From a virus: a stretch of DNA of 37,170 bases. Below are positions 418 to 36,509 of this stretch, in pieces. Every line of letters begins with the position of its first letter. Position 1 is the first letter of the stretch. The stretch is from positions 1 to 37,170 of the IMG/VR virus record IMGVR_UViG_3300009137_000103. One strand, written 5' to 3'. The notes under the pieces are model-generated. The model was not told the DNA's origin and made no database searches. It worked only from the letters and a program-made list of their open reading frames with translations. A program made the position numbers and the translations under genes.

Positions 418-3400
418 TTAGACCTCCGAGATGATCAAAAATGCACCCTGTTCAGCGATCAAATCCAGCCTCGTGGCTGAGCTCGCCAGGTTCCCGCAAA
501 ATCCCCCCTCCGGAATGGCCCCCGTGCGGCCGATTTTGAGATCGCTCGGGAGCAGTGGCGGGGCCTCCAAAAGCCCGCTTTTCACGAGCACGCATTCGAC
601 GGTTTCAACGACCTCATCGACCCAGCGAAATGCCTGGCCATCGTTGATCCAAAACGGCGGGCCGCTCGGCGGATCTGTCGGGCAGCGATCAGCATCATCA
701 TCGCTGACGGCCTCGCGGCGTTGGCCGACTTGTTGGATGGTGCGCACGGCCAAAAATCCAGTGCTGCCAAGATTGACCAGGTCCAGAATTTCCACGGGCA
801 CGGCGAGCCAAAAGTCCGGATCAATCTCCGCGCGATACTCAGCGTCACTGCGCACGATAGCCAGAGCGTAAGGGCACCCGACCAATTGCCCGGTCTTGCT
901 CGCGCCGATCGTGGTCCATGTGGCCCAGTCACTCGGAGAATCTTCGTTTAACGTGCTCGCGACACCGCTCAAGCCATCGCCATAGGCTTTGCAGGTGCCG
1001 ACCGTTGTGCAATTGGTGCCATCCAACTCGGTCAGAGCCACCGCGCGATCGTCACGATAATCGTACGTGCGAAACTTGAAAACCATCGGCAGATCGAGGC
1101 GGACTTTGTCCAGCAGGTTGACCGCTTTAACCAGGCGATTGAACAGCTCCGCGTACATGATCGAATTGGGCAATGGCCCGAAGCCCGATGCATCGATCCG
1201 TTTGGCGAGCGGGAAACATCCAATCTCGCGGCCTTTGAACGCATCGAAACACAAATTCTCGAATCGATAATCGTAGAGGTTGCCCTCGCCGGTCCGGCAG
1301 GTGATGTCTTGTGAAGTGAGCCCGTCCACGAACCCTTCGCACATGGCGCGGAGATAAATCTCGGCTTGCAACATCGAATCGATCACGGCGCGGGTGTCGT
1401 GGGATTCCATCACGTCATTGTTGTCTTCGTAAACTTCGGGGAGCAAATGGCAGAAGAAAAAGTGCGGGTAACAACATCCGAATGGATTATCCGGCAAACC
1501 GTCAACGCCACTCGCAGTGCCACTGTCGCCGGTCTTGACGCTGCATTGTTTGGTGGGATCAGCCTGGTGCAGGACGTATTCCCGGACCGTGTTGTCGTCG
1601 GTGCGATAATCCTCATTGATCTCCGGGTCAGTGGCATACTCGTTGCGGAGCTGCTGCACCTCATCTGCGGACCACGTGCTCGGGTCTTTGTTCACCGCGG
1701 CCGGCGCATCCGGGTGCGATCGGAGCCGCTGCTTTAGCGTCACCTTGATGATCTGGTCAGGCGCCCAGTCGTCCACAACGCAGCTCTCGATCTCATAGGG
1801 CGCCTCATACACGCGGCAGCTCGAATAGAAGTTGTCGCTGCCGTAGCTGCGATTGGCGCCGAGCGTGTAGTTGTATTGGTCCGGCGCTTCCGGCGCGATG
1901 AACTGGAATTGCACGCTCATCGGGTTGCGGATCGGCATGAACGTATCGGCGTCCAGGCCGATGTTGTAGTTGTAGGAAACGTGCCGGCGCAACGCCGGCG
2001 GGGCCGTGCCACTGAAGAAATGGCAGCGCTGACACCAGGTGAAATAATCGCTGTACGCGTCGGGCTTCCAGATTGAGGTTTCGCTGGGATGATACCGTTT
2101 GGCTTCGATGAACAGCACCCATTCGTTGGTGAATCCTTGTTTGAGCGCGGCGTGTCGGATGCCGTCGTGGACGAAGATCTGGGCGTCGCCGGTGGCTTGG
2201 AAGCTGCCTGGCGAGTCGCCACGCCGGACAGGCGGGTCGCCTGTGCTACCGAGGGCGACGAAAGTCTGATCGTTGCCGTAGAGGTTGCCGGCATAGGCGA
2301 TCTGGCCGTTGGTTGTGCGGACGATGTAGGTCTCTCCTTCGATCAGCTCCCCACTGGCCACTGGATCGAGCGGCGGGGCGATGTTCGCAAACATATCGGC
2401 TCGAGTGTTGTTCAGGCCGAAGGCAAACCGTTTGAAGCGTAGGATGCTTTTGCCGCCGTTGACTTCGTAGCAAATCAGGTTCTGCCGGCGAACGATGCGC
2501 GCATGATCGCGGCTGAGGCGCCGTGCGGCGTCATAGACCGGATTGTCATTGACCCATTCGGCGATGTCGCGCACGGCGGCCACGCCCGTCCGATTCACAA
2601 CGCAACCATTGGTGAAGAAATCATCGCTGATCTCCTGCGCTTGCGCGTAATCGCGTCCGCGGCCGTCCACGCCGGCGCCGAAGGCCGTGCCGCCGGCCGT
2701 GGCGGCCAGGCGGCTCAACAAATATGCGTCCCAAGGTTGCGGCTTATATTCGAGCTGCTCGGTAAACTCGACGCTGATCGAGCCAATGCCGCTAAAGCGG
2801 GCTGGAGTCGCCAGGCGCACTGTGAGCGGGGCCGGCGTGGGACAATCCTCCAGCCAAAGCATGGCCTCGGCGGCGCCGTTTGCGTCCGGCTTGAGCCTCA
2901 GAGACCCGATCACCTTTGCGCCATCGACGATTTCGACACGCGCGGGTTCATGCAGATTTTTTGCCTTGGCGAACATCCCGGCCAAGACAAAGCCGGCGCG
3001 ATAGAAAAGCTGCGTCTCGCCGTCGGTAAAACGGGCCACGGTGCCATCGGGCACGAAGCTGCCGGCAAATTCGGCGCGCGGATAAAGCGCGAAGAGAAAG
3101 TCGCCGACCGCCACCCCAAGCGCGGGCGACAGATAATATTGGCGGTTGTAAAAGGCTTCGTTGTCGAAGGCGATCTTCTCGATGTCGAACGTGTCAGGGG
3201 TGCGCTGCATTGGTGTGCCGCGAAAATCCACAGCGAACGCCCACAAGGCGCGGGCCAGGTGATTGCCGTTAGCGTGCGCCAGGCGTCCGACTCCTTCGTA
3301 GGGGCCTTCAATCCAATCGGCCTTGAGGAACATGTCCAGGTTGTAATCGCACTCGCCTGTCCCAGTGCCGACGAACACGTAGTAATTAAATGGCCCTTCC

Positions 3401-4179: not shown

Positions 4180-4186
4180 TTTGCGC

Positions 4187-5686: not shown

Positions 5687-6139
5687 TGGGGTAGCGCGGG
5701 CGGCATGGCACGTGCCCAATCGGTCTGGAAGCGCAGCGAGGCTGTTCGGCGAGTCCCGACTCGGAGTCGGGACCGAGTCGGTCGCGCTACCCGTTGGCAT
5801 TCGATTTGCAGCATCGATTTGTTGCTCGTTTTTTCATCTGCGTGCAATCCCACCGCGGGACGCGTGCCTTGCTTCACAGTCGCCTGCCAAAATCGCGTCC
5901 CGCACTTTATTTATAGGCCGATCAGTTGCGTTTGACAGATCGGCGGGCGCGGGACCGAAACGCCGGAGTTACCGCGCCCGCCATGCCTGGCGGTGCCTCA
6001 ATCTTTGTCTCAGTCTTATTCACACTCGTACTCTTAACTCTTACTCCCGCTGGCCCCGACATCGGGATGTCGGGGGCTCACAGAGCCGCGTTCCGGAGCG
6101 CGAGTCTGCGACTCGCAGCAACTTCACACAAACCGCTCC
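5687..6139. repeat. Repeat-rich spacer with R5, R3 and R4 copies
   Basis: About 450 bp between the small gene at 6140 and the kinase. It holds an R5-like hairpin repeat (5748-5793), inverted GCGGGACGCG/CGCGTCCCGC segments near 5855-5905, an R3 palindrome (6054-6076) and an R4 half copy (6078-6095). No convincing gene is seen. The open frames across it on either strand are GC-driven. It is the largest gap inside the late unit and could contain a separate promoter for the kinase, though I see no clear -35/-10 pair. Confidence 0.6.
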
Positions 6140-8346: not shown

Positions 8347-8367
8347 CCCCGACATCCGATCTCGGGG
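8347..8367. repeat. R3 palindrome (CCCCGACATC-type)
   Basis: An imperfect 21-bp palindrome between the tape measure and the gene upstream of it. It is the same family as copies at 6054, 11234, 15587, 16720, 20943 and 22708. Confidence 0.8.
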
Positions 8368-8987: not shown

Positions 8988-8995
8988 CGGGAGGC

Positions 8996-9067
8996 TTTAC
9001 GCGAATTGTCGCGACTGGCTCCCGCGAATTTCCCGATTCGCGTTCCTTAGCGTCAATTCGCGTAAAA
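8996..9067. repeat. R1 intergenic palindromic repeat, copy a
   Basis: A roughly 72-bp element starting TTTACGCGAATTGTCGCG and ending TTCGCGTAAA, with an internal GATTCGCGTTCCTTAGCG block. The termini are inverted repeats. It fills the gap between two late genes. Confidence 0.85.
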
Positions 9068-9074
9068 AGTTCGG

Positions 9075-9972: not shown

Positions 9973-10043
9973 TGAACAGGAGGCAACGGAGAGAACAGAG
10001 AGTTTGAGGGTCTTACTCCGTTTCCTCTGTTTGCTCATGTTCA
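9973..10043. repeat. R2 palindromic repeat, copy a
   Basis: The element begins GAACAGGAGGCAACGGAG and ends CTGTTTGCTCATGTTC, an imperfect inverted repeat of about 70 bp. Read on the minus strand it encodes a hydrophobic stretch with a lipobox-like end (LSVLSVASC), but no gene is evident here. Confidence 0.8.
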
Positions 10044-10055
10044 AGGTTTTTTGGT

Positions 10056-10547: not shown

Positions 10548-10561
10548 TTCAGGAACGGAGG

Positions 10562-10632
10562 CTTCACGCGAATTGTCGCGAATTGTCGCGAACATCCAGA
10601 TTCGCGTTCATTAGCGTGAATTCGCGTAAAAA
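10562..10632. repeat. R1 palindromic repeat, copy b
   Basis: The same family as the copy at 8996, with the GAATTGTCGCG unit doubled at the left. It fills the spacer before the tail completion gene. Confidence 0.85.
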
Positions 10633-10650
10633 GGTTCGGTGAGTTAGCGT

Positions 10651-11211: not shown

Positions 11212-11219
11212 GGGGGATT

Positions 11220-11294
11220 TTTACGCGAATTGTCCCCCGACATCGGATGTCGTGGGCCCCAGCTTCGCGTTAATTGGCGTCAATTCGCGTAAAG
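11220..11294. repeat. R1 palindromic repeat, copy c, with nested R3
   Basis: An R1 element whose centre is replaced by an R3 palindrome at 11234-11256, so one repeat family has inserted into another, or the two have recombined. It lies in the spacer between the gpF-like and gpG-like genes. Confidence 0.8.
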
Positions 11295-11300
11295 GCTTTT

Positions 11301-12135: not shown

Positions 12136-13008
12136 TCATGGTATGATGGCGCGGTTCATGTCCGATTGGTATTGTTGAACGCCGTGATAATAAAATGTTT
12201 GTCGGGTTGGCGGAATGGCTGTGCCAAAGGTGTAATAACTGAGAGTCCTGCTCGTGGGACTATTCAACGAACCCGATGCATTGATCCCGTGAACGAACTG
12301 GGAATTGCCGTCGATGGCTGGTGTGGTCCCAACGTCCGTGCTACTACTCAATATGGATGAGCCATTCTTGTAGAGTGTGCGGCTTGATTGCCCGTTCTTC
12401 ACTGCAAGATAAAATCCGGTGCGCGGCGATGCATCGGCAGCACTGATTTGAGAAGCAGCGTCGTCATAATACATGTAACAGTTGCCATCTATCCAACCCA
12501 TGAGGAAATAGTTGACGAATCCGCCTGCTGCCGTGCTACCAATTATTCCGCCAACCTCCGCCTTGTTCGTCCGCACGTAAACACCCTGGTGAATATTGGT
12601 TGCCGTGCAATAGGCGCTTGACGCAACACCAGTGCCGAGGAACTTCGTAAGACCATCCCCAGTTAGCCCCGTCGTCTCACTGTAATCCGCCGCCACGAAA
12701 GCTGTGAACGTATCCGTCGTGTTTCCCAATGCGGAGCCACCAGGATACTTATTGATGAGCGGGCAAACGAGTGCGTTAGTCGTATTGCCAGCGTACGCCC
12801 CTGCTCTCGCAATTCGCTGGCGCAAATCATGTGTCTTGGTAAAGATGACAAGGCGCGTGGCTGCGTTATAGGAATGTGCGGATACCGTACCGCCGTTTGC
12901 CGGGACACGTATCTTGGCCCAGTTATAGGCGTCTGAATCCCAGGCGTTGAAAAATCCGAATGCTTGTGCGTTCAGATGGCAGACGAGTAGGAGAGCGAAG
13001 GATTTCAT
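12136..13008 (-). CDS. Fibre-like exported protein, LamG-type beta fold likely
   Basis: A 290-aa protein with an ATGA overlap with the upstream 712-aa gene. The N-terminus (MKSFALLLVCHLNAQA) looks like a Sec signal peptide with cleavage after AQA. The rest is a Ser/Thr/Asn/Gly/Tyr-rich beta protein with an arrangement like concanavalin/LamG folds (FTAFVAADYS ... FYLAVKNGQSS). Paired with the long repeat protein upstream, it could be the receptor-binding tip of a fibre. Base composition is visibly lower in GC than its neighbours, suggesting recent exchange. A signal peptide is unusual for a phage fibre. Confidence 0.6.
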   Translation of the reverse strand: MKSFALLLVCHLNAQAFGFFNAWDSDAYNWAKIRVPANGGTVSAHSYNAATRLVIFTKTHDLRQRIARAGAYAGNTTNALVCPLINKYPGGSALGNTTDTFTAFVAADYSETTGLTGDGLTKFLGTGVASSAYCTATNIHQGVYVRTNKAEVGGIIGSTAAGGFVNYFLMGWIDGNCYMYYDDAASQISAADASPRTGFYLAVKNGQSSRTLYKNGSSILSSSTDVGTTPAIDGNSQFVHGINASGSLNSPTSRTLSYYTFGTAIPPTRQTFYYHGVQQYQSDMNRAIIP

Positions 13009-15143
13009 TTGTGCAGATTGCCAGCCATCGTACCGTGAACGAGTGAGTTGGTGAAGGCGCTCGTGATGAACTCGAAGTAGGAGACAGCGTTCGCGTTAGT
13101 ATCCGCTATGGGCATATCTCCACCCGCCCAGCTAAAGGCTGCGTTGGTGAAAGTCAACGCCCATGTTCCGGTAGAATCCTGCTGCACTTCCAAATGAACC
13201 TTCTTCGGATAGGCTGGAATATTAGATGGTGCTGGCATTTGCGCTGTGTTGGTCAGGCTGAGCTTGAACCATGCATCACGCGTGTCGCCGAGCGAGAGGT
13301 CCATTGCAGTCAAATTAGTCCCACTGTAGGTAACTGTATTCCACGAGAGTGTTGAGTGGTTAGCCTGCATGTTCGTGCTTGCTCCGATGGCCCAGACGAT
13401 GTCGGCAGTATCCTTGAAGTTCGGATTTGAGACGCTGGTGCCATTTTGATAAACACTCGTCCCGCCACCAGCCGCAGCCGCATAAGATGGATCGGCCCCA
13501 CTGCCACCAGACGTCAGAACGTATCCAGATGTGCCTGGTGTCAAAGCAGCCCAACCACTTGCTCCGCGATATAGAATTGAACCGCGAGTACTTCCGATCC
13601 AGTCAAGAATCTGCGTTCCAGTTACTTCCTCCGGATCGCCTGAGCCTGCCGTGTTACGCCCGATGGCCCTAGCCGTGGCGCTAATGTTCTGCATCTTCGC
13701 ATAAGTGACCGCGTCGTTAGCGATGGTGGCCGCTGTACCGGATGTCGTGACATCTCCCGTCAACGCCTGCACGTTGGCGGTCCAGTTTGACGTGCCGTTG
13801 AAGGCCCACTTCAACGTCGCCGTGTCCTGGATGTTCGCCTCCGGCGCGGTGTTCGTCGCGTTGATGTGGAGGGCGGGAACATTCTTGCCAGCGACCTTGA
13901 CCGTCGTCGCGTTAATCACGGTCGTGTTGATGTTCGTGATCGTCGCCTGATCGATGTTCGTGGTCCACGTCGGCACGCCGTTGGAGATCACCATGATGAA
14001 GCCCTCCGGGCCTTTGGGCAGCCGCGTGAAGTTGGTGCCGTCGTACCAGAATAGATCGCCCGCCACGCCGGTGATGTTGCTCAGATCCTTGACCAGTGTC
14101 GGCAGCCGGTTCGACGAGACCGTCCCGCTCGTCAGGTCTGAGGCGCTGCGCGTGGCCAGGTCAGCCAGGCTGCTGCCGGTCTTGTCGATCTTGGACCACC
14201 CGATCGCCGCCGAGCTGCTCACCTGCGCGTCTGCGACTTGAGCATAGCTCTGGTCTCCGCGCAGGAAGGTAGTGCTGTTGGCCGTGCCGCTGCCGAGCCT
14301 TGCCGTGGCCACAGTGCCACTGGACAGGTCCGAAGCGCTGCGCGTGGCCAGGTCAGCCAGGCTGCTGCCGGTCTTGTCGATCTTCGACCAGCCGATTGCC
14401 GCGCCGGAGGCCACCTGCGCGTCGGCCACCTGCTTGTAGGTCTGATCGCCGCTCAGGAAAGTCGTGCTGTTGGCCGTGCCGCTGCCGAGCCGCGCCGTCG
14501 CCATTGTGCCGCTGGTGACCTTAGAAGCGCTGAGTGCCATTACATTGGCCGACGCGTTTGTGCCGGACAGGCCGAATGCAATCTCAGACGTGTCCTGGAA
14601 ATTCAAAATCGGCGTGTTGGTTCCGTTGATGCTTGCCGAGCTGACATTGTATCCGTTACGAGTGAGTGAGGACGAAAAAGCGCCCCCGACAGCAGTAATC
14701 AACCCGATGCCTGAAAACGTCGCATTGCCAGTCGCGGCCTCCAGCGAGATTGTTGTTCCAAATCCGCCACTATGCAGATCAAGGCTCTTTGTCGAGTTGT
14801 TCCATTGAAGGCCAATGTCAAAGCCGATCGTGTTTGTGCCGGTTGAGAAAGGGATTCGATTGGCGAAGTAAGCCGCGCTTTGGCCGAAGTGGATTTGGCC
14901 TCCAGACTTGACGATGCCGCGACCGACGCCTATCGCGTCGCTGAGTGCGGCGGAGTTCGACGGCCAGAAATTCAGCGGCGCGACAACCTGGCCGTTTGTA
15001 TCGGCACTGACGCTGCGGATCTGGGCAACGGCGCTGCAGGCGGTCTGCAGGAGGAAGAAACTGAACAGGAGGGAACGGAGAAAACCGAGGGTGCGCTTCT
15101 CTGCCTCTGTTCTCTCTGTTTGCTCCTGTTGAATTAGGTTCAT
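13005..15143 (-). CDS. Long repeat-containing fibre-like protein, 712 aa
   Basis: It starts with an ATGA overlap with the 145-aa gene. The first about 40 residues (after MNLIQQEQTERTEAEKR) include a hydrophobic segment LRSLLFSFFLLQTACSAVAQ, a signal-peptide-like region with possible cleavage after VAQ, and are partly coded by an R2 repeat. The body is Ser/Thr/Gly/Asn-rich with two near-identical 64-aa repeats (SGTVATARLGSGTANSTTF type) and phrases like TGTQILDWIGSTRGSILYRG, common in tail-fibre or collar proteins. The C-terminal 120 residues look like a beta-sandwich head. Function inferred: fibre shaft. Confidence 0.7.
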   Translation of the reverse strand: MNLIQQEQTERTEAEKRTLGFLRSLLFSFFLLQTACSAVAQIRSVSADTNGQVVAPLNFWPSNSAALSDAIGVGRGIVKSGGQIHFGQSAAYFANRIPFSTGTNTIGFDIGLQWNNSTKSLDLHSGGFGTTISLEAATGNATFSGIGLITAVGGAFSSSLTRNGYNVSSASINGTNTPILNFQDTSEIAFGLSGTNASANVMALSASKVTSGTMATARLGSGTANSTTFLSGDQTYKQVADAQVASGAAIGWSKIDKTGSSLADLATRSASDLSSGTVATARLGSGTANSTTFLRGDQSYAQVADAQVSSSAAIGWSKIDKTGSSLADLATRSASDLTSGTVSSNRLPTLVKDLSNITGVAGDLFWYDGTNFTRLPKGPEGFIMVISNGVPTWTTNIDQATITNINTTVINATTVKVAGKNVPALHINATNTAPEANIQDTATLKWAFNGTSNWTANVQALTGDVTTSGTAATIANDAVTYAKMQNISATARAIGRNTAGSGDPEEVTGTQILDWIGSTRGSILYRGASGWAALTPGTSGYVLTSGGSGADPSYAAAAGGGTSVYQNGTSVSNPNFKDTADIVWAIGASTNMQANHSTLSWNTVTYSGTNLTAMDLSLGDTRDAWFKLSLTNTAQMPAPSNIPAYPKKVHLEVQQDSTGTWALTFTNAAFSWAGGDMPIADTNANAVSYFEFITSAFTNSLVHGTMAGNLHK
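14143..14526. repeat. Two tandem 192-bp coding repeats
   Basis: Two adjacent near-identical 192-bp units within the 712-aa fibre gene (64 codons each; about 14143-14334 and 14335-14526). Such units lengthen fibre shafts and can change in copy number by recombination. Confidence 0.85.
15061..15132. repeat. R2 palindromic repeat, copy b, in the 5' end of a gene
   Basis: An R2 element beginning GAACAGGAGGGAACGGAG and ending CTCCTGTTGAA. It covers codons about 5-28 of the 712-aa protein and encodes the hydrophobic core of its predicted signal peptide. Confidence 0.8.
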
Positions 15144-15586: not shown

Positions 15587-15682
15587 CCCCGACACCGATG
15601 TCGGGGAGTTGGAGCGCGGCTCTGTGAGCCGCAGCGTTGTGGCTCGGTGGCGATGATGCTGCGGGTCACAGACCCGCGCTCC
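15587..15682. repeat. R3 and R4 repeats between late genes
   Basis: An R3 palindrome (15587-15606) is followed by a full R4 element (15611-15682). R4 starts GGAGCGCGGCTCTGTGAGCC and ends with its near complement GGGTCACAGACCCGCGCTCC. Confidence 0.85.
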
Positions 15683-16140: not shown

Positions 16141-16208
16141 GGAGCGCGGCTCTGTGAGCCGCAGCATGTCGGCGAGCGCGCTTGCTGCGGGTCACAGACC
16201 CGCGCTCC
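16141..16208. repeat. R4 palindromic repeat
   Basis: A full R4 element of 68 bp, nearly the same as the copy at 15611. It lies in the spacer between the gp36-like gene and the exported 158-aa gene. Confidence 0.85.
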
Positions 16209-16719: not shown

Positions 16720-16740
16720 CCCCGACATACGATGTCGGGG
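16720..16740. repeat. R3 palindrome with shared tail
   Basis: A 21-bp R3 palindrome followed by CAGCACCTTG, the same 10-base tail as the copy at 20943, so the repeat unit is longer than the palindrome. Confidence 0.8.
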
Positions 16741-19288: not shown

Positions 19289-20899
19289 TCATATCAGAGT
19301 TGTTTTCTTGCGCAGTTCATCGACCACAGCGCCGGTCATGGCGTCGGCCATCATTTCCTGGAGCGCTTGCGCGTACTCGGGCCGGGCGCGGACCTGGTCG
19401 GCCAAATCCGGCACGTCTTTGAGGAGTTGCTGCAGCTCGCGTTGGAGTTGGGCGGGATCATCGATCTGCAGCAGGGTATCCAGACGCTGCAGGATGGGTT
19501 GCAGACTGGTTGCGCGGGCGCGGAAAACTTTTTGGAGCGCGGGTCTGCTCACAGAGCCGCGCTCCGCTCGGTTGCGTAGTCCCAGTGTTGCAGGCGAGTC
19601 GCCTGCAACGGCGGGCGGGTCGCCCGCGCTACCCAAGAGGATCTGCGGCTTCAGCTCGAGGGTGTAACCGGTCTTCTCGGATAATTCCGCAGCATCGCGT
19701 TGATAGCCGGCCTGGGCAAGCGTGAGGGTGTTGTCCGCTTCCTCTTTCACGTCCGCTTCGTCGCGCGGACGCAGATGGAAGTACGCCAGCGCCGGTTCGC
19801 CCGAATGCTCGCGCGCCAGGATATCGGCGTCGAATTGGGCCTGGAACACTTCGTTGATCTCGGCGGCTTCGCCTTCGGCGATGTCGTCGAACGTGTCTTC
19901 GTGCGCGCCGCCGGCCAATGTGCCGCTGCCGCTCTCAGTGAGCATCGTCAGCTTGCCGCCTGTGCCGGCCAGCACCAGCTCTTCGTCCTGGTAGCGGATA
20001 TGGTCGCGGAACGGATTGATGCCGCGCGGTTGATCGTTGGGCTTGTAATCGCTGCCGGCCGGCAACGCGCCGCTGCCGCCGCTGGCGATACGGGAAGCGG
20101 CATCTTCGTAATCTTTTTCTTTGCCTTGCTGGATGTTGCCGGGCATCACGACCACGCCGCTGGGGATCCCATAGATCTCGATGAAGGCGTCCCAGTCTTT
20201 TTGGGAGAGGTTCTTGCGCAGGTAACAGAACAGTCCGATCTCGTCGATGGGCATGTCGCACTCGCGAATGATGAAGCCGGCCGGGTCGATGACCTGGCCT
20301 TTAAGCACGTCGAATGTGACCTGGCGACTGTCCTTGTTGTACGCCCATGGCCCGTAAAGGCCGTCGCGGACCCAGGTCCATTGATCGAGCGGCTCGAGGT
20401 GCATCACGTCGCCGTCCGGGCTGCGCTGCTTTTGGAGGTGGCTGAAGCCGCGGAACTCGGCCAGGGCAAGAAACGCGATCGCGCCACGGAGGTTGTCCAG
20501 GGCATCGTAGGCGGCGCGGAGGGTTTGTTTCTGGGCATCGGCCTGGGCCTGGGTGGCGCCGGGGGGCAGCTCGGCCACGGTCTTGATGTCCCAATCCAGC
20601 TTTTGCAGGGCGGCCCGGCGCCGGATGATCAGGGCGCGGTGGGTCGCGTTGCGTTTCTCGACAAGGCGGAAAAGCCATTGGAGATCAGCGAATTCACCGC
20701 GTTGGCCGGCTTCCAGGAGGCTCACCGAGCGGGCGACGGTCAGGCCGCGGAGCGGGTTGTACCATTCGCGCCACCGGTTTGTTCCCCGGACCAGCCGCTC
20801 CATATCCACTGCGGTGCCGGGCAAAGCGGCCTGGACGCGGTTCAGGAGCGGCCAGGCGGCGCTGACCAGGGCGGTGCGGAGGTTGCGGAAAAGGGTCAT
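19289..20899 (-). CDS. Portal protein, DUF935 (Mu gp29) type
   Basis: A 536-aa protein. The order NRWREWYNPLRGLT (residue 40), RNATHRALIIRRRAAL (residue 84), LDWDIK and GVVVMPGNIQQG (residue 250) followed by INPFRDHIRYQDEELVLAGTGG is characteristic of DUF935 portal proteins, which form the dodecameric DNA gateway and dock terminase. It is coupled by ATGA to the zinc-ribbon gene upstream. R5 and R4 repeats (19534-19635) are inserted in frame near residue 425-455, in the C-terminal region after the core, adding about 35 residues. Confidence 0.85.
   Translation of the reverse strand: MTLFRNLRTALVSAAWPLLNRVQAALPGTAVDMERLVRGTNRWREWYNPLRGLTVARSVSLLEAGQRGEFADLQWLFRLVEKRNATHRALIIRRRAALQKLDWDIKTVAELPPGATQAQADAQKQTLRAAYDALDNLRGAIAFLALAEFRGFSHLQKQRSPDGDVMHLEPLDQWTWVRDGLYGPWAYNKDSRQVTFDVLKGQVIDPAGFIIRECDMPIDEIGLFCYLRKNLSQKDWDAFIEIYGIPSGVVVMPGNIQQGKEKDYEDAASRIASGGSGALPAGSDYKPNDQPRGINPFRDHIRYQDEELVLAGTGGKLTMLTESGSGTLAGGAHEDTFDDIAEGEAAEINEVFQAQFDADILAREHSGEPALAYFHLRPRDEADVKEEADNTLTLAQAGYQRDAAELSEKTGYTLELKPQILLGSAGDPPAVAGDSPATLGLRNRAERGSVSRPALQKVFRARATSLQPILQRLDTLLQIDDPAQLQRELQQLLKDVPDLADQVRARPEYAQALQEMMADAMTGAVVDELRKKTTLI
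19534..19635. repeat. R4 and R5 repeats inserted in frame in portal gene
   Basis: An R4 half element (19534-19565) and an R5 element (19588-19635) lie side by side. On the minus strand they encode GSAGDPPAVAGDSPATL and RAERGSVSRPAL, with no stop and no frameshift. Confidence 0.85.
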
Positions 20900-21336
20900 A
20901 AAGGTGCTTCCGGCATCTTGCCGGAAGAAGAATTGAGTGCAGCCCCGACATCCGATGTCGGGGCAGCACCTTGGGGGTGCGGGCTCAAGGGCGGGGGGCT
21001 ATGGTCATCCGTCCTTAGCGTAAGAATGCCTGTAAAGGCCGTGCCGCGCGCAAATTTAGCCCTTCCCGTCGAGCCTGTGACCAAGGAATCGGATATGGGC
21101 GGGTGGTCCTTTTTCCAGCGCCTGGTCCGGCACAAGTTCCCGCAAAATGCGGCTCCCGGAGTTTTTGGAATGAATCGATGGCCGCATTCGACGCAGTTCC
21201 TTGGGCCTGGGCGGAACTGGCGCGGCCGTCTCAGGGTCCATGCTTGGACCCGGCAATCATCCGAGCAAAATCGTTTTGTCGCGCGCTTCGGCGTGAAGGC
21301 CGTTCCGCAGACCGGGCATGGGATCGGTTGCTTCAT
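20896..21336 (-). CDS. Double zinc-ribbon protein between TerL and portal
   Basis: A 146-aa protein. Two Cys4 units are clear: CPVCGTAF...RFCSDDC (residues 7-28) and CVECGHRF...AAFCGNLC (residues 48-69), each CxxC-x12-CxxxC, typical of small zinc-binding proteins. The C-terminal 60 residues are Pro/Ser-rich and run through an R3 repeat in frame (APTSDVGAAL). It overlaps TerL (ATGA) and portal (ATGA), so it belongs to the packaging operon and may bind DNA or aid terminase. Function not known. Confidence 0.65.
   Translation of the reverse strand: MKQPIPCPVCGTAFTPKRATKRFCSDDCRVQAWTLRRPRQFRPGPRNCVECGHRFIPKTPGAAFCGNLCRTRRWKKDHPPISDSLVTGSTGRAKFARGTAFTGILTLRTDDHSPPPLSPHPQGAAPTSDVGAALNSSSGKMPEAPL
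20943..20963. repeat. R3 palindrome inside zinc-ribbon gene
   Basis: A 21-bp R3 palindrome with the CAGCACCTTG tail, inserted in frame in the C-terminal part of the zinc-ribbon gene. Confidence 0.85.
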
Positions 21337-22829
21337 CCCGCCAAACTCCTTTCACGGCGCTCGGCGAGCACCTGGTTGCGATGGCTGTCCGGCACGATGA
21401 TCCGGCCGATCGCCGACGGGAAACTGCCGGCATGAACGCATAGCGCCAGGCCGTTGGTCCGATCGGCGTGGCCATCCTCGGATTGCGGCGCGCGATAGGT
21501 GACGCTGCCCGCCGCGGTAACGACCCGCTGCATGCTGTGCAGGTCTTCACGCACCAGGCGGTTGATCGGGATCCGAAGCTTGCGGCTCTCGAAGGCCATC
21601 TTGAGTTTGGGGAAAATCTGCAGCTTGAATTGGTTGGTCATCACGCACAGCTCGATCTTGCCGAACAGGTCCGCATCCGGTTTCCATTCGCCGAATTCCT
21701 TGACCAGGTAATCGCCCATACCGATGCCCGGCCCGGTATAATCGAGCGCAACACGCCGCGCTTTGCGGATGCGCGGGCGGAGGTTGTCGATCTGGTCCGG
21801 GGTGCTCATGTTTTGCAGCTCGAGCACTTCGCGTGTGGCCTGCACGTCGCCGATCATTTCGGCAGCCCAGGAGACGGTGAGGTTTTTCTTGCGGCCGTAA
21901 TCGATGCCCAGGTCAACCGGGAAAGGCGTGGTCGATTCCCAAAATTCGGCTGGCGCGGCCGTGTGCGCCTCCGGACTTTCGCACAGGGCAATCAGGTCAT
22001 AGGGCAACAGAACCGAAGCGGCATCGAGGAATTGACATTCGAATTCCTGCGCCCAGCCGTCGGGATCATTGAGCGCTTCCTTGAGCTCCTCGATATTGAC
22101 GGGCAAGCCTTCCTGCACGGCGCGATAAATATCCACGTAATGACAGCTCCATTTGGCTTTGGGCTGTTGATAGTTCTTGCTCCAGAGTTCATGGAACTTG
22201 TTGCCGATGCCGTTCGGGGTCGAGATGAGCCGGACCCGTTTGACCCCGCCGCGGAGCGGGTTGGTGATGCTGGGCAGGATCGCGCGCCAGGTGGCATCCG
22301 GATTTTCGAAGAAGGCAAATTCGGTGAGCAAAATGTTAGCGGAGAAACCGCGCACGGTGTCGGGCTTGCCGGGCACGGCAATGACGCGCGAACCGTGCGG
22401 GAAAATGATGGTGCCGGATTTGAGCAGGGCCTCGGCGCTCTTGGTTTCGCGTTCTTCGAGCACATCGGCAATGGTCAGTTTGTAGGCTTCAGCCCAGTCT
22501 TTCCATTTGTTGAGTGACTCGAGGGCCTGGCGTTCGGAGGGGGCGCCGATGAGCCAATCGACTTTGTTGTTGTCCAGCTCGTGCTGGACGCAATCGCGGA
22601 TGCCTTCTTCGCCGCTGGAGAAGTCTTTGCCGACCTGGCGGCTCATGAGGCCGATCTTCCAGCGGGCATCGTCATCGGCCCAGGAGCGCTGGTAGGGCAG
22701 AAGCAGACCCCGACATCCGATGATGTCGGGGCGCTCCGGAGCGGGACCGGCGGGGCCGGCATTGGGGCTGTGCGCATCAGCCTTTCTGCCGGTCCCACCG
22801 TCAGTGTCGCTTGTTGAAAATGTGTCCAT
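21333..22829 (-). CDS. Terminase large subunit (TerL), Mu gp28-like
   Basis: A 498-aa protein. The ATG overlaps the last base of the small subunit stop (TAATG). The ATPase core begins near LLPYQRSWADDD (residue 43), with a Walker A-like SRQVGKD (residues 63-69), a Walker B-like ILLTEFAFF, and a coupling segment RVRLISTPNG. The nuclease part has VDLGIDYGRKKN and a late Asp-rich block. It packages DNA by headful-type translocation and cleavage. The N-terminal 42 residues are low complexity and contain an R3 repeat in frame. Confidence 0.85.
   Translation of the reverse strand: MDTFSTSDTDGGTGRKADAHSPNAGPAGPAPERPDIIGCRGLLLPYQRSWADDDARWKIGLMSRQVGKDFSSGEEGIRDCVQHELDNNKVDWLIGAPSERQALESLNKWKDWAEAYKLTIADVLEERETKSAEALLKSGTIIFPHGSRVIAVPGKPDTVRGFSANILLTEFAFFENPDATWRAILPSITNPLRGGVKRVRLISTPNGIGNKFHELWSKNYQQPKAKWSCHYVDIYRAVQEGLPVNIEELKEALNDPDGWAQEFECQFLDAASVLLPYDLIALCESPEAHTAAPAEFWESTTPFPVDLGIDYGRKKNLTVSWAAEMIGDVQATREVLELQNMSTPDQIDNLRPRIRKARRVALDYTGPGIGMGDYLVKEFGEWKPDADLFGKIELCVMTNQFKLQIFPKLKMAFESRKLRIPINRLVREDLHSMQRVVTAAGSVTYRAPQSEDGHADRTNGLALCVHAGSFPSAIGRIIVPDSHRNQVLAERRERSLAG
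22708..22731. repeat. R3 palindrome inside TerL N-terminus
   Basis: A 24-bp R3 copy with an extra GAT in the centre. It encodes RPDIIGCRG just before the conserved ATPase core of TerL. Confidence 0.85.
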
Positions 22830-23374: not shown

Positions 23375-23383
23375 TCACTGAGG

Positions 23384-23455
23384 CTTTACGCGAAGGGTCG
23401 CGAATGGCCGCGGATTTCCCAGATTCGCGTTCCTTAGCGTTAATTCGCGTAAAAA
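23384..23455. repeat. R1 palindromic repeat, copy e
   Basis: A full-length R1 element of about 72 bp, in the spacer between terminase small subunit and the 85-aa gene. Confidence 0.85.
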
Positions 23456-23457
23456 GT

Positions 23458-23715: not shown

Positions 23716-23722
23716 GCGGGGG

Positions 23723-23795
23723 CTTTACGCGAATTATCGCGAATTTCCGCGACCGGTCCTAATTGGTCTTCATTCGCGTGAATTCGCATAAAAAA
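23723..23795. repeat. R1 palindromic repeat, copy f
   Basis: A slightly diverged R1 element (end TTCGCATAAA instead of TTCGCGTAAA) between the 85-aa gene and the receiver gene. Confidence 0.8.
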
Positions 23796-23810
23796 GTCCG
23801 GAGTGAAAGT

Positions 23811-24616: not shown

Positions 24617-24628
24617 TCAAACGGGTAG

Positions 24629-24665
24629 CGATTCGCGTTCCTTAGCGGTAATTCGCGTAAAAAGG
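24629..24665. repeat. R1 right half
   Basis: Only the right part of an R1 element (GATTCGCGTTCCTTAGCG to TTCGCGTAAA) remains, upstream of the coiled-coil gene. Confidence 0.75.
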
Positions 24666-25387: not shown

Positions 25388-25632
25388 TTTGTTTGATCGG
25401 TTGCAGGCAGTGTGGCTTGGATGGCTTCAATGTGTTCGTGCACGTGTTCCAGTGCTTTGTCGGTCTTCGTCACGCCCATGCGCAGGAAGGTGAGCCCGAG
25501 GAAACCGAACATGCCCATGATTTCTTCACTGGGGTTTTTGCCGGTGAATTGGCAGAGGGCCAGGTAACCGATCGCGGCGCCGGCGACCAGGTAGGTCTTT
25601 TTGCCGGAGAAGAATTGGAGCACTTCGTTCAT
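25384..25632 (-). CDS. Holin-like small membrane protein, 82 aa
   Basis: An 82-aa protein with two predicted membrane segments (TYLVAGAAIGYLALCQF, residues 13-29, and IMGMFGFLGLTFLRMG, residues 38-53) and a hydrophilic, His/Glu/Lys-rich tail, as in class II holins. It is the first gene of the tightly packed late unit. No endolysin gene is recognised nearby. Function inferred from topology and position. Confidence 0.6.
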   Translation of the reverse strand: MNEVLQFFSGKKTYLVAGAAIGYLALCQFTGKNPSEEIMGMFGFLGLTFLRMGVTKTDKALEHVHEHIEAIQATLPATDQTK

Positions 25633-25642
25633 GGGCAGACTT

Positions 25643-25710
25643 TTTTACGCGAATTGACGCCAATGAACGCCAATTGGGGGGGAGGTTAATTCGCGATAAT
25701 TCGCGTAAAG
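25643..25710. repeat. R1 palindromic repeat, copy h
   Basis: A diverged R1 element with the block order altered (TTTTTACGCGAATTGACGCC ... TTCGCGTAAAG), just upstream of the holin-like gene and therefore in the leader of the late unit. Confidence 0.8.
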
Positions 25711-25729
25711 CCTCGGTTTGAGAACAGCG

Positions 25730-30350: not shown

Positions 30351-30653
30351 TCCCAATCGGAAATCGTGAATCGTAAATCGAAAATGGAATTTGGCTGGGG
30401 TAAGGAGTCGGTGATAAACCGGTCGTGCGAGTCCTTGGCCGCGTCGCGGGCCAACTCACGGCGCAGTCAAGATTTCACTGGACTTTCTCCCAGCCCAATT
30501 CGTTTTGCCCCCCAACCGAAGCGCCCTGGCGAGCCACGTTCCGCGCGGCCTCACGCCGCGCGTAACGGGAGGCTTTACGCGAATTTCGCGAATTATCGCG
30601 AAGGGCCCCGATTCGCGTTCATTGGCGTCAATTCGCGTAAAAAATACGGCGCA
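30351..30653. repeat. Spacer with R1 copy i and a CGCGCGG hairpin
   Basis: A GC-rich hairpin CGCGCGGCC/CGCCGCGCG (30541-30562) is followed by a complete R1 element (30573-30645). The frame of the next gene runs open through all of it from 30366, but I take the start at 30654. Nothing else is evident. Confidence 0.6.
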
Positions 30654-31725: not shown

Positions 31726-31782
31726 ATGCCTTTCGATTCAAAACAATCTGCTGCGAAAACGAGTCTCAGCCTTTTTGATTAA
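31726..31782 (+). CDS. Possible 18-aa leader peptide
   Basis: ATG at 31726 encodes MPFDSKQSAAKTSLSLFD and stops at 31780-31782, two bases before the ATG of the next gene. There is no strong ribosome site. The close spacing may reflect a leader peptide, but it could be chance. Confidence 0.3.
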   Translation: MPFDSKQSAAKTSLSLFD

Positions 31783-31783
31783 G

Positions 31784-32350
31784 ATGACCATTGAGCGACC
31801 AATTCAACGCACTCTGGATCTCCGCGCGGCGGATGGGTCGCGCCTGGCGTTCCTCAGGCCGATGCTCGGGATCGAGTCTGTCAAAGCGGTCCTCGATGTG
31901 AGCGAGGATGAGGTGCTCGAGTTGCTTGCTGGTGGGGCGCTGCGCTGGGGGTGGGATCTAAAGGCCGAAGGTGGCGGGGCGCGCAGTTTCGTCCGGGTCT
32001 GGAGCAGATCGGTGACGTGTTACTTGCATCCGGGACATCAGCCGGCTGAGCCGGAGGAGATCGAGGATGTGATCGGGCTGCTGCTGTCCGCGGAGCGCGG
32101 CTCCGTGAGCCGCAGCGCGGTGGCTGGCGACATTGCTGCGGGTCACAGACCCGCGCTCCAATCAGGCAGTGTCCCTGCAATAGCGCTGCAACGAATTTTC
32201 AACGCCAGTTCCGGGCATGTGCTCAATCTGATCCGGGCCGATGCCCTCGAGTTGACCAAAAGTAGTCAATGGCGACGCGGGCCGGGCGGATCGCCGGAGG
32301 TGACCAGGGCAAGCGTGGTGGAGCTGCTCAAGGCGAGGAGGATTTTATGA
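31784..32350 (+). CDS. Early protein with in-frame R4 repeat, 188 aa
   Basis: MTIERPIQRTLDLRAADGSR start. The N-terminal 90 residues are helical (VKAVLDVSEDEVLELLAGG). Residues about 104-126 (ERGSVSRSAVAG and AAGHRPAL) are encoded by an R4 repeat. The end (LTKSSQWRRGPG then TRASVVELLKARRIL) looks DNA-binding. The N-terminal block has a helix-turn-helix-like pattern. Function unknown, possibly a regulator. Confidence 0.55.
   Translation: MTIERPIQRTLDLRAADGSRLAFLRPMLGIESVKAVLDVSEDEVLELLAGGALRWGWDLKAEGGGARSFVRVWSRSVTCYLHPGHQPAEPEEIEDVIGLLLSAERGSVSRSAVAGDIAAGHRPALQSGSVPAIALQRIFNASSGHVLNLIRADALELTKSSQWRRGPGGSPEVTRASVVELLKARRIL
32092..32159. repeat. R4 palindromic repeat inside early gene
   Basis: A full R4 element of 68 bp without stop or frameshift in the 188-aa early gene. 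Confidence 0.85.
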
Positions 32351-32562: not shown

Positions 32563-33481
32563 CAAAGAGAAAGAGGAAGCCGCTGTGCACTCAGGAAAAC
32601 GTCCGCCAGACGATGACTCCGAGACCAAGCAGCATCCCCCTCAACAACTTGAACGTAGCCGTTCACCGGAGAATTGCAAGAACCGAGCCGTGATGGATGC
32701 GGTCGAGACTGTGGAGATCGCAACCCGCCTGGAGGAGATGTTTCACGACGCCCAGATGGGGCTCTGCCGCTTCATCGCCTTCGGCCTGTACGCCTACGAG
32801 GTCAAAGAGCTCAGGCTCAACCACGGCCAGTTTGGCGAGTGGATCAAGCAGCATTGTCAGCGTATCCCGTGGCGCACAGCCAATCATTATATGGCTCTGA
32901 CCAAGGGACTTCTGTATGCGTGCGGCTGCAAAATCGAGGACTATATCCAAATTCGCAAACGTTGCGAATTTGACCACGGCGGGGAGTTGATCCTCAAGGA
33001 CCCCTCTGAGCTTCCCGATTCAGCGCAGCCGCTCGCAATCAAGATGCGAGCGATGGTCGAGGGCAAGACGGCGCGCCAGTTGTTCCTGGAATTCAAGACG
33101 GCCGAGGATGTGAACGGTGAGCTGATGGTCCGCCGACCAGGCATCGGTGATGCCGCCTGGGAGAAATGGATGTGGGAATACCACCCGAACCTGATCAAGG
33201 AAGGCAAGGTGCCCGGCCGGCAGCATGTCAAGGCGGCGATCAAGAAGGAGTTCGACGCGTTCTGCCTTGAGCGGCAGCGGCGCAATCATGATCCGATCGC
33301 CGAAGCGAAAGCCAAACAGAAGTTCGCCGACGATCTCTGGGATGGCCTGGCGCAATCGCTTTGGAGGTGCCGGGATAAGTTGCACCTGTTGTCCGATCAT
33401 GTGCGGGATCAGGTGCTCGACGCGTGCGTGGAGACCAGTAATGCGATCCGGGCGATGAAGAAGGGGGGGAAACGATCATGA
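32552..33481 (+). CDS. DUF3102-like early protein, 309 aa
   Basis: The start has a good ribosome site (GAGAGGAG). After a disordered N-terminus (residues 1-50) the unit FGEWIKQHCQRIPWRTANHY (about residues 92-111) has the pattern of DUF3102, found in phage and plasmid proteins that may regulate host or replication. A charged C-terminal helix follows. It is coupled to MuA by ATGA. Confidence 0.6.
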   Translation: MNPDKEKEEAAVHSGKRPPDDDSETKQHPPQQLERSRSPENCKNRAVMDAVETVEIATRLEEMFHDAQMGLCRFIAFGLYAYEVKELRLNHGQFGEWIKQHCQRIPWRTANHYMALTKGLLYACGCKIEDYIQIRKRCEFDHGGELILKDPSELPDSAQPLAIKMRAMVEGKTARQLFLEFKTAEDVNGELMVRRPGIGDAAWEKWMWEYHPNLIKEGKVPGRQHVKAAIKKEFDAFCLERQRRNHDPIAEAKAKQKFADDLWDGLAQSLWRCRDKLHLLSDHVRDQVLDACVETSNAIRAMKKGGKRS

Positions 33482-35451
33482 GTTCCGAATTGAGTCCCGA
33501 TGTTGAAGGCGGGTGGCCTTCAACTGCGCCCGAGTCGGGCGCGCTACCCGAAGGCGCGGGCGCGCAGCCCTACGAAATTCCGCAGGCGGATGCGGCTGAG
33601 TTCGGCGCCTTGCAGGAAGGAGTGCGCGAGGAGGTGCTGTCATTGCTCGATGTGCTGAAGCAGATCGAGGCAAGGAAGAAAGTGGATGAGTCGTGCAAGT
33701 TTTTCGCCGCGGGTCTGCATCGGTCGTGGCATCGGTTGCGCGCGCAGTTTTATGCGTATCGGAAAACCCGCGATTGGCGGGTGTTGGTGAACCGTGTCCG
33801 GGCAGGCTTGTCGGAGCGGGATGAAGGATTGGCCCCGGCGTTTGTCGAGTTCTGGAAATCGCTCCTGGAGGAGAACAAGCGTAAGGATCAACCGGCCTGG
33901 CGCACGCTGATCTATATCTGGATACATCGCCGGCATCCGACCACGGGCAAGGTGCTGCGCGAGATCCCAGGGTATGCGTCCTGGCCGACGGCTGTTCCGC
34001 GCACGCGCCTGCCCAAGGGCTGGACGTACTCGAACCTGCGCAATTACGGGTTGACATTGTTCGAGCGGACCGCGGCGCGGATCGGGCGGAGCGCGGCGGC
34101 AGCGCATCGGCCGCTGGTGTTGATGACGCGGGCCGATCTGTGGGTCGGGTCGCATTACATGATCGATGACTTGTGGCACGATCATTTCGTGAATGTGCTC
34201 GATACCAAGAAGACGGGCCGGCCGCTGGAGTTCGGCGTGTTTGATCTGTATTCGGCGTGTAAATTTTCCTGGGGTATGCGGGTGCGGACTGAGAATGACG
34301 CGACGGGCCGGATGGAGGGGCTCAAGGAGGAGATGATGCGCTATTTGCTGGCCAGCGCGTTGATGGAGTACGGTTATTCGCCACGTGGCACAATCCTTGT
34401 CGTTGAGCACGGCACGGCGGCGGTGCGGGATGAGCTGGCCAAGGTGCTCTATGATTTGAGCGGGGGCAAAATTGTCGTGGCGCGCTCGGGCATCGATGGT
34501 GGCGGGGATGCGCTCGGGCTTTATGAGGGGCGTGGCAAAGGCAATTTCCGGCTCAAGGCCGCTTACGAGTCTTCACACAATCTGACGCATAATGAGTTTG
34601 GCGCGTTGCCGGCCCAGACCGGGCGTAGCGTCGAGACGCGGCCTGAAGGCACGCACGGTGTGCTCAAGCGCAATGATGCGTTGCTCAAGGCGATGATCGC
34701 CTTGGAGGCGGAGCGGCCGGAGCTGATGAAGGAGCTGCGGTTCGATGTGTGTGAGTTTGGCTGGTTCCTCGCCTTCGCGATGGCGGTCTATGAGCGGATC
34801 AATTCGCGCACCGACCATGAGCTGGAGGGGTGGGCGGCCAATATCACGATGGAGCATGGCCTGGCGCGGCGGTTGTCGCCCAGGGAAGTGTGGGCGCGCG
34901 GGCGGCGTGAGTTGATTCGGTTGTCGCCGGCCGCGATCGCGATAGTGCTCGGGCCGGATCTTGGGTTCGAACGGCGCGTGCTGGGCAATATTATCGAGGT
35001 GGCGCAAAAGGAAGTGTCGTGTGACCCGCTGTTTTTCGATGCGCATGAGTTGAAACCGGATAGGTACCGGCTGGTGCTCAATCCGTTTCGGCCGGATCGG
35101 TTGTTTGCCTTCAATGCGCGCGGCGGATTTGTGGCGGAGTGCCCGCGGCTGGATCGGGTGAGCCGGCTGGACCCGGAAGGGTTGCATCGGGCGAACGGGC
35201 GGGTGAAGCGGCTCGAGGGCGAGCTGCTCGCGCGCACGTGCGGGCGCAATGGGGCGGCGATGAAACAGCACATCGAGGATGCGCGGCATAACGCGGCATT
35301 GTTGGCCGGCGCGATTGAAGGGCCTGCGGCGCCGCTGGTCAGCAGTGAGGCCACGCTGGAGGATTTGCCTGACGTGGATTTAGGCGAGGAGTCCGGCGCG
35401 GATGCGTCGGTCGCCGATGATCAGTTGCGGGCATTGGAGGAGTTACTATGA
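33478..35451 (+). CDS. MuA-like DDE transposase
   Basis: A 657-aa protein with an ATGA overlap with the DUF3102-like gene and the MuB-like gene. The catalytic RNase-H-like domain spans about residues 215-400: the first acidic position is in YMIDDLWHDHF (D230/D231), the second in VVEHGTA (E310), the third in AAYESSH (E364). The D-to-second spacing (about 80) and the final gap of 54 fit MuA (67 and 56). In MuA the second residue is Asp; here it is Glu, so either the family uses D-E-E or my alignment is off. A beta-barrel region follows (about residues 490-560). An R5 hairpin lies in frame near residue 10-24. Confidence 0.85.
   Translation: MSSELSPDVEGGWPSTAPESGALPEGAGAQPYEIPQADAAEFGALQEGVREEVLSLLDVLKQIEARKKVDESCKFFAAGLHRSWHRLRAQFYAYRKTRDWRVLVNRVRAGLSERDEGLAPAFVEFWKSLLEENKRKDQPAWRTLIYIWIHRRHPTTGKVLREIPGYASWPTAVPRTRLPKGWTYSNLRNYGLTLFERTAARIGRSAAAAHRPLVLMTRADLWVGSHYMIDDLWHDHFVNVLDTKKTGRPLEFGVFDLYSACKFSWGMRVRTENDATGRMEGLKEEMMRYLLASALMEYGYSPRGTILVVEHGTAAVRDELAKVLYDLSGGKIVVARSGIDGGGDALGLYEGRGKGNFRLKAAYESSHNLTHNEFGALPAQTGRSVETRPEGTHGVLKRNDALLKAMIALEAERPELMKELRFDVCEFGWFLAFAMAVYERINSRTDHELEGWAANITMEHGLARRLSPREVWARGRRELIRLSPAAIAIVLGPDLGFERRVLGNIIEVAQKEVSCDPLFFDAHELKPDRYRLVLNPFRPDRLFAFNARGGFVAECPRLDRVSRLDPEGLHRANGRVKRLEGELLARTCGRNGAAMKQHIEDARHNAALLAGAIEGPAAPLVSSEATLEDLPDVDLGEESGADASVADDQLRALEELL
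33502..33550. repeat. R5-like hairpin repeat in MuA N-terminus
   Basis: GTTGAAGGC and GCCTTCAAC form a 9-bp hairpin, followed by GAGTCGGGCGCGCTACCC, the R5 end. It encodes VEGGWPSTAPESGALP in frame. Confidence 0.75.
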
Positions 35452-36509
35452 CTGAGCAGGAGCGACCGCGTGAGATCAATTTGTCCGGGGATACGGTGAC
35501 GCTCAAGACGGCCGATTATCCGGATGAGCATCGCAGCTTGTTGCGTTGGCTTTTTGCCTGGGCCAAGGAGCGGCAGTGGTCCTGGCAGGAGGCTGAGCAG
35601 GAAACAAAATTGTCGGTGACCACGCTCTATCGGATTTGGACGGGCAAATATCGGTACCAGGATAAGCATCCGAAGGCCGGTGAGTTGATTCCGCTGGATG
35701 GCATCTGCGAGCGGATCGCCCATTTCAAAGAGCTCGCTGAGGAGCGGGCCAGTTTGCGGCGATTGCCCTTCGTCGTCGAGACGAGCGTGTTCCGCAAGAT
35801 CGAGAAGCTGTGTCGGGAGACTCTGGTGATGCAGTCCATCTCGATGATCTACGGTGAATCGCAGATCGGCAAATCCGCCGCGCTCAAGGAAGTGGCCCGG
35901 CGCAATAATCACGGGAATACCACGTATGTGCTGACGCCGGCCAGCGCGGGTGTGCAGGGGTTGATCAAGGCGATCGGCGCTGCCTGCCATATCGCAGGCC
36001 ACACCAGTTACGATGTGTTGCGTGAGCGAGTGGGGAATTACCTGGATGATTCCAAGTTGCTGATCATCGATGAAATCCACGAGATTTTCGTTTCCTACTT
36101 TCGCGATTCGCGGCTGCGTTGTCTGAGTGTGTTGCGCCAGATGCAGGAGATGTCCGGGTGCGGCCTGGTGCTCTGCGGCACAAATGTGTTCCGGCACGAG
36201 CTTGAGCAGGGCGAGTTCGCGCAGTCCCTCAAGCAGCTCCGCAAGCGCGGGATTCTTGAGCTGCAACTTGAAAGTGTGCCCAGCGCGAAGGATATGGAGT
36301 TGATCGCTGCGCATTACCGGCTCGGGGCGCCCACCGGCGAGGCGGCGGAGCTGGCGAGCTGGATCGGCAAGGAGTTCGGGCTCGGCAAATATACGCGGTT
36401 CCTGGCGCGAGCGTCCCAGCTCGCCACCAAGAAGGGTGAACGGTTTGGCTGGCGGCATTTTTGTGATGTAGTCGCCATCGCCAATCGCATGAAGCAGGAG
36501 GCCAAATGA
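35448..36509 (+). CDS. MuB-like target-capture ATPase
   Basis: A 353-aa protein. The N-terminal 60 residues carry a helix-turn-helix (SWQEAEQETKLSVTTLYRIW), as in Mu B. The AAA+ core has Walker A IYGESQIGKSAAL (about residues 133-145) and Walker B LLIIDEIHEIF (about residues 203-213), then a sensor-like VLCGTNVF. MuB binds target DNA and activates MuA. It overlaps MuA by ATGA. The C-terminal part has the small helical domain. Confidence 0.85.
   Translation: MTEQERPREINLSGDTVTLKTADYPDEHRSLLRWLFAWAKERQWSWQEAEQETKLSVTTLYRIWTGKYRYQDKHPKAGELIPLDGICERIAHFKELAEERASLRRLPFVVETSVFRKIEKLCRETLVMQSISMIYGESQIGKSAALKEVARRNNHGNTTYVLTPASAGVQGLIKAIGAACHIAGHTSYDVLRERVGNYLDDSKLLIIDEIHEIFVSYFRDSRLRCLSVLRQMQEMSGCGLVLCGTNVFRHELEQGEFAQSLKQLRKRGILELQLESVPSAKDMELIAAHYRLGAPTGEAAELASWIGKEFGLGKYTRFLARASQLATKKGERFGWRHFCDVVAIANRMKQEAK

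Follow-up and report, generated by a model that had tools for sequence, protein, structure and literature searches.

REP-like palindromes lying in frame within head and transposition genes of a Mu-like phage

Palindromic repeats within the genes of the window

The DNA analysed here, referred to as the window, is IMG/VR virus record IMGVR_UViG_3300009137_000103 (37,170 bases), a sequence from an environmental sample that codes a Mu-type portal, the terminase large subunit (TerL), a head protease, a major head protein, MuA and MuB. The gene calls for portal, TerL, the MuA-type transposase and MuB rest on Pfam/PHROGs. Three palindromic repeats, named R3, R4 and R5, all lie in frame in genes of the window, and R3 and R4 are found between genes as well. 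An earlier note on this DNA had placed R3 in TerL and a zinc-ribbon gene, R4 and R5 in the portal gene, R5 in MuA and in a gene of 1253 amino acids (aa), and R4 in an early gene. Every one of these copies is present, although the long open reading frame (ORF) extends to 1279 aa from its first ATG and a length of 1253 implies a later start.

The portal gene (19289..20899, minus strand; Portal_Mu at residues 75-411) carries two in-frame repeats, namely R5, a 46-nucleotide (nt) two-hairpin REP tagged with GTAG, at residues 423-438 (19587..19632, minus strand, model match of 70.6 bits) and R4, a REP tagged with GGAG, at residues 445-455 (19544..19565, minus strand, with a partner arm reaching to about 19537). 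In the zinc-ribbon-like ORF (20896-21336, minus strand) the R3 palindrome occupies residues 125-132 of 146 within a poorly conserved C-tail (20943..20963, strand unassigned), and TerL (21333..22829, minus strand, start at 22829) holds an R3 with a loop 3 nt longer at residues 33-41 of its N-tail (22708..22731). The 1279-aa ORF (418-4257, minus strand) has an in-frame R5 at residues 670-685 whose second hairpin is partly decayed (2204..2249, minus strand, 62.3 bits). R5 covers residues 9-24 in the N-tail of the MuA-type transposase (33478..35451, plus strand, phrog_310; repeat at 33502..33547, minus strand, 62.3 bits), where it is reversed relative to the gene; it is forward in the portal and 1279-aa genes. 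R5 copies in phage genes are single, not paired. The early ORF (31775-32350, plus strand) contains an in-frame, REPIN-like pair of R4 units placed head to head (32092..32159).

The major genes hold only a minority of the window's R4 and R3 copies. R4 occurs mostly as head-to-head pairs, which are found at three places (15611/15661, 16141/16187 and 32092/32138). The pairs at 15611..15682 and 16141..16208 are intergenic and absent from L001, a locus of the nearest phage, G001, whose portal is 83-84% and whose MuB is 86% identical to that of the window. R3 is intergenic at 8347..8367, 11235..11256 (within an R1-type hairpin), 15587..15606 and 16720..16740 (absent from L001), and stands beside a degenerate R4 unit at 6054..6094, outside the major genes. 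Allowing up to two mismatches, the R4 pattern has 8 matches in the window compared with a mean of 0.00 in 100 shuffles. The R3 pattern has 4 matches compared with 0.00 in 100 shuffles, the TerL copy being uncounted owing to its 3-nt insertion.

R4 consists of GGAG, a C and a hairpin of 7 bp whose loop is 3 nt long. Nine copies of R5, of which the window, G001 and other phage contigs supply three each, align over their 46 nt with no gap and are laid out as a tag plus C (5 nt), a 7-bp hairpin (17 nt), 1 nt and a 10-bp hairpin (23 nt). The tag is GTAG, GGAG or GTGG, depending on the copy. Within the second hairpin the inner four pairs are almost fixed and the outer six vary, mostly on both arms. 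Double changes are found at 10 pairs of the phage copies, amounting to 28 double-change cells compared with 8.4 after shuffling, and 97.4% of cells are paired compared with 77.1% after shuffling and 37-51% in slid controls. None of 500 shuffles reached the observed pairing or covariation score, a control that disregards kinship among the copies and does not yield a probability. G-U cells number 2 of 153. The hairpins are kept at the level of DNA, as both arms of the stems change together, almost without G-T pairs.

The lack of stops and frameshifts stressed in the earlier note is real; it is weak evidence alone, as the units are open in 4-6 of the six frames (R3 6/6, R4 unit 5/6, R4 pair 4/6, portal R5 5/6, MuA R5 4/6). 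Because neither unit length, 46 or 68 nt, is divisible by three, the frame would be kept by the junction bases and by selection, not by the unit.

Insertion and paired change judged against relatives

Comparison with relatives at the level of sequence shows in-frame insertion in TerL and in the 1279-aa, early and zinc-ribbon genes. TerL has 27 extra nt that include R3 and are missing in G001/L001 and in L004, placed in a tail ahead of the conserved core. The 1279-aa gene has a net 33 extra nt with R5, missing in L007 (G001) and L008 (G004). In the early gene the R4 pair stands where G001 has a short CTATCGCC repeat, a net difference of 48 nt, and the zinc-ribbon tail of G001 (L001) is without R3. 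The earlier description of the repeats as extra in-frame sequence in tails and linkers is borne out by these gains. Repeat-free homologues encoding the same peptides, which the earlier note had named as grounds for regarding the peptides as native, were not encountered; the peptides differ. The note had also proposed alignment of TerL, portal and MuA to repeat-free relatives. This gave the 27-nt gap in TerL but not in portal or MuA, where the nearest phage has an R5 of its own, and the expectation of empty sites in all phage relatives was dropped for these two genes.

The L001 portal thus offers no empty site, and its R5 has the same junctions and length as that of the window and different letters. 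Its second hairpin shows three double changes, a changed loop and no uncompensated stem change, and its first hairpin shows double changes and one G-T pair. In a simulation, eight random substitutions left a 10-bp stem perfect in 59 of 2,000,000 trials. Most simply, an R5 would have inserted once in an ancestor and its arms would then have changed in pairs where it stood, with a swap for another R5 copy as the alternative to such change.

R5 is present in the MuA N-tail of both the window phage and G001, though their MuAs are just 34-38% identical. The nearest MuA found (L234, 58% identical) is without R5, as are all 18 other loci searched; nine of 27 loci were left out of this search (three G001 copies, the remainder being duplicates or close copies by match, or a fragment). 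Since R5 is found in both tails, the identity is low and L234 is free of R5, the copies in the window and in G001 are likely to be two separate acquisitions. Across the region 33221-35454, MuA identity to G001 of 34-38% stands against 86% for MuB, which suggests exchange of the MuA gene.

The earlier note had called for the sites to be placed on structure models. In an AlphaFold2 model of the portal, pLDDT falls below 50 over residues 420-450. This stretch contains most of the R5 and R4 peptides and is flanked by the Portal_Mu core (75-411) and a helical region at the C-terminal end. The R5/R4 segment is predicted from this model to be disordered; the model was built on a 25-sequence alignment with pTM 0.54, and its local reading alone was used. 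The same linker carries two REP-like hairpins in L061 and another repeat in L004, and unrelated repeats at one portal linker are expected if tolerance sets the position. The hairpins at linker positions in L060 and L061 have GGCG-type cores. Among 64 portal genes, hairpins of at least 9 bp occur only in the window and G001. In other phage contigs R4 or R5 also lies in frame, the gene being a portal/head ORF in L150, a portal in L153 and one for head morphogenesis in L152, and exact 22-mers recur across genes, intergenic sites and unrelated phage contigs. R4 is also seen at one site of one gene in two phage contigs, as a single unit in one (L148:9087-9108) and as a head-to-head pair in the other (L151:6437-6524).

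The window holds other repeats. A further intergenic hairpin family (TTTACGCGAATT..., about 75 nt) has 15 pattern matches in the window, with hairpins of this type at 8990-9070, 10557-10634, 11214-11297, 23379-23457, 23718-23796, 24618-24665, 25632-25714 and 30568-30645, and its pattern has no matches in the G001 pieces and other contigs checked. A 72-nt repeat with self-complementary ends is intergenic at 9973-10044 and lies at the N-terminus of ORF 13005-15143 at 15062-15133. The same ORF includes a tandem duplication of 192 nt (14119-14502, 83% identical). The contig end (36821-37170) forms an inverted repeat with 174-nt arms matching at 145/174 positions, and may be either a phage end or an assembly fold-back.

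REPs and RAYTs in Verrucomicrobiota genomes

REPs are short tagged hairpins that would be moved as single-stranded DNA, in trans, by a RAYT transposase (Y1, HUH-type). Portal relatives of the phage are present on five Verrucomicrobiota genome contigs. As exact repeat patterns matched nothing, relaxed patterns and a structure model were used. With two mismatches allowed, R4-like REPs were found in 16 of 100 genomes of one family, reaching 81 copies (44+37) in G525 and 52 (26+26) in G518; the reversed control gave 0-1 per genome. R5-like tags, also with two mismatches, were found in 9 of 132 genomes of one order, and the reversed control matched 5 of 132, in genomes other than those nine. A model of R5 built from the phage copies alone matched 15 of 100 genomes from the same Verrucomicrobiota family as the R4-like REPs (E up to 0.001, these values being rough). 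The largest counts per genome were at least 61, at least 58, at least 50, 30, 21 and 12, the large ones being lower bounds, and many matches stood as +/- pairs.

Host R5 copies consist of GGAGC, the 7-bp hairpin, one variable nucleotide and the 10-bp hairpin, and the outer six pairs differ among most copies. Full pairing at 7+10 is seen in 33 of the 39 copies listed, which were taken from 63 matches with duplicates and overlapping stretches mainly dropped. In 44 distinct host copies, 98.8% of cells are paired, 129 are double-change cells and 6 of 743 are G-U; this alignment was fitted to the R5 model and so leans towards it.

Y1 transposase genes are present in all four host genomes tried and in neither of the two phages, and no RAYT gene is found in the window or G001. 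In G525, G166, G544 and G091 there are Y1_Tnp genes bordered by R5-type REPs; no RAYT was tied to R4. In the host gene valS, a REP lies in frame between the catalytic and anticodon domains, and its peptide reads GSAGVPPA where the phage portal has GSAGDPPA.

In five Verrucomicrobiota genomes, alanyl-tRNA synthetase forms one open frame whose catalytic domain model encloses a Y1/RAYT-type transposase domain together with R5-type REPs (L223:718-4098 in G525, L224:683-4174 in G166, L225:371-3805 in G544, L227:44-3484 in G507 and L226:447-2636 in G091, the last partial). Four of these frames are about 1,127-1,164 aa long and one is cut by a contig end; the Y1 match in L227 falls just below the cut-off. 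A search with the RAYT of the alanyl-tRNA synthetase returned these five as the only high-identity cases (at least 66%) among 100 genomes. No paper on such a frame was found in a literature search that left subscription papers outside its range. A 731-aa open frame at L183:1983-4175 (G091) includes an in-frame RAYT, bordered by REPs, that separates two creatininase-like stretches.

Origin of the repeats and comparison with known systems

Taken together, R4 and R5 very probably came into the phage genome as REP/REPINs of its Verrucomicrobiota hosts and survive in permissive linkers and tails. With no RAYT gene in either the window or G001, a host RAYT would be the likely mover, and the route would run from host to phage. 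Judging by position, frame and the portal model, copies in frame within disordered linkers and tails would survive and others would be purged. The surviving copies would be translated as short spacers rich in Gly, Ala, Pro and Asp, and the peptides would be neutral. Stem pairing could be kept up by recopying of the arms from each other during replication or mobilisation, or by selection on pairing at the DNA level.

A further proposal, to be held tentatively, is that R5 acts as a self-rewriting hairpin, one arm being copied from the other as single-stranded DNA during replication or RAYT-driven movement, so that the portal linker would be rewritten continually in this manner and not by ordinary mutation, with the phage as a vehicle between hosts. 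It is put forward because the outer six pairs differ in most R5 copies and yet nearly all of them pair; its case from two phages is change after insertion at one fixed portal site.

Several findings weigh against the host-derived origin of the repeats and their survival as tolerated inserts. A search of 387 Verrucomicrobiota genomes found R4 and R5 in none of them in the exact form seen in the phage. The portal R4 is not a clean insertion, as the L001 stretch is 6 nt shorter and non-palindromic. Perfect 8-bp hairpins are found in 11 of 64 portal genes compared with 7.65 expected from codon shuffles, an enrichment that is not clear. R3 has no adjoining tag and was found in 0 of 100 genomes with up to one mismatch. 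The presence of R5 in portal and MuA of two phages could mean that the element is useful to them. On a rival reading, the hairpins would be kept as RNA structures in phage mRNAs, serving pausing, stability or translational control, and would be functional parts, not tolerated inserts. Such a role would agree with the portal site, where two phages differ in peptide but keep the stem paired, and with the R5 in both MuA tails. It is nonetheless improbable, given that R5 occurs in both orientations relative to genes, that the G-U pairs allowed in RNA are rare in phage and host copies alike, and that MuA relatives in the 18 other loci and most portals are without R5.

The chance that the peptides are native, and look palindromic merely from GC-rich Gly/Ala/Pro codons, appears very slight. 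The recurrence of exact 22-mers at unrelated places, same-site peptides that differ while pairing is kept, and the absence of the stretch from relatives' TerL and 1279-aa gene all speak against it, whereas the equal length of the L001 portal linker and the commonness of low-complexity linkers in the portal family are in its favour. The likeness to Rickettsia palindromic elements drawn in the earlier note holds in effect, as both insert in frame in genes, but not in membership. That the repeats are true Rickettsia-type elements, a distinct selfish family specialising in coding regions, is scarcely credible, despite the shared in-frame insertion and stop-poor frames. Those elements are about 150 bp (PMC10969869) and belong to Rickettsia, whereas the present units of 21-27, 46 and 68 nt lie in a Mu-like phage, bear a REP tag, a REP hairpin, head-to-head pairs and a RAYT association instead, and, for most R4 and R3 copies of the window, are placed outside the major genes.

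With host-derived REPs in this phage, the range of intragenic REPs would widen beyond bacterial genes to those for virion parts and transposition in a phage. The positions of the repeats would show, by natural example, where portal, terminase and MuA tolerate insertions, and phages are suggested as carriers of REPs between bacteria. The covariation data set, with its pairing at the DNA level and an unusually clean signal, could be used to investigate how REP hairpins stay perfect while their letters change.

R4 and R5 are, by their sequence features, REP/REPIN-type elements. A GTAG-type tag with a short palindrome is present, strict GTAG being borne only by window R5 and host R4 (R4 is tagged GGAG in the window, and most of its copies in host relatives have GTAG). 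Inverted pairs occur for R4 in the window and for R4-like and R5-like copies in host genomes. Near variants, rather than copies in the phage's own host, reach many copies per bacterial genome, and R5-type REPs flank RAYT genes in host relatives. R3, with neither tag nor host copies found, is treated as a further inserted palindrome without family assignment.

No paper on REPs inside phage virion genes was found in the literature search, subscription papers again being outside it. REPs lying in frame in genes have been described, with the highest occurrence for the GTAG class in Opitutus terrae (Di Nocera et al. 2013, PMC3733652). The present repeats resemble the Opitutus REPs in being GTAG-tagged hairpins that occur as singles and dimers and in frame in host genes. 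They differ in being carried by a phage, within its portal, terminase and transposase genes, in the set form of R5 as a unit of two hairpins and in the GGAG that R4 bears in the window. Compensatory changes have been called common in REPIN hairpins (Bertels and Rainey 2011, PMC3116915). REPINs and RAYTs (PMC3116915; Nunvar et al. 2010, PMC2817692) share with the present system head-to-head REP pairs, REP-flanked RAYTs and compensatory hairpin changes, whereas here the six outer pairs of each unit's second hairpin form the variable complementary part and the genes struck are those of a phage. Rickettsia palindromic elements (PMC10969869) are likewise translated in frame as palindromic inserts in unrelated genes, and differ from R4 and R5 in host, size, tag and RAYT association. 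Mu-like phages of P. aeruginosa insert at REP-like hot spots (PMC5977238), which may bring phages of this kind and REPs into contact. For Verrucomicrobiota host genes, REPs lying in frame were already published in 2013, and what is new is phage head genes as REP carriers together with a variable stem that is almost always complementary.

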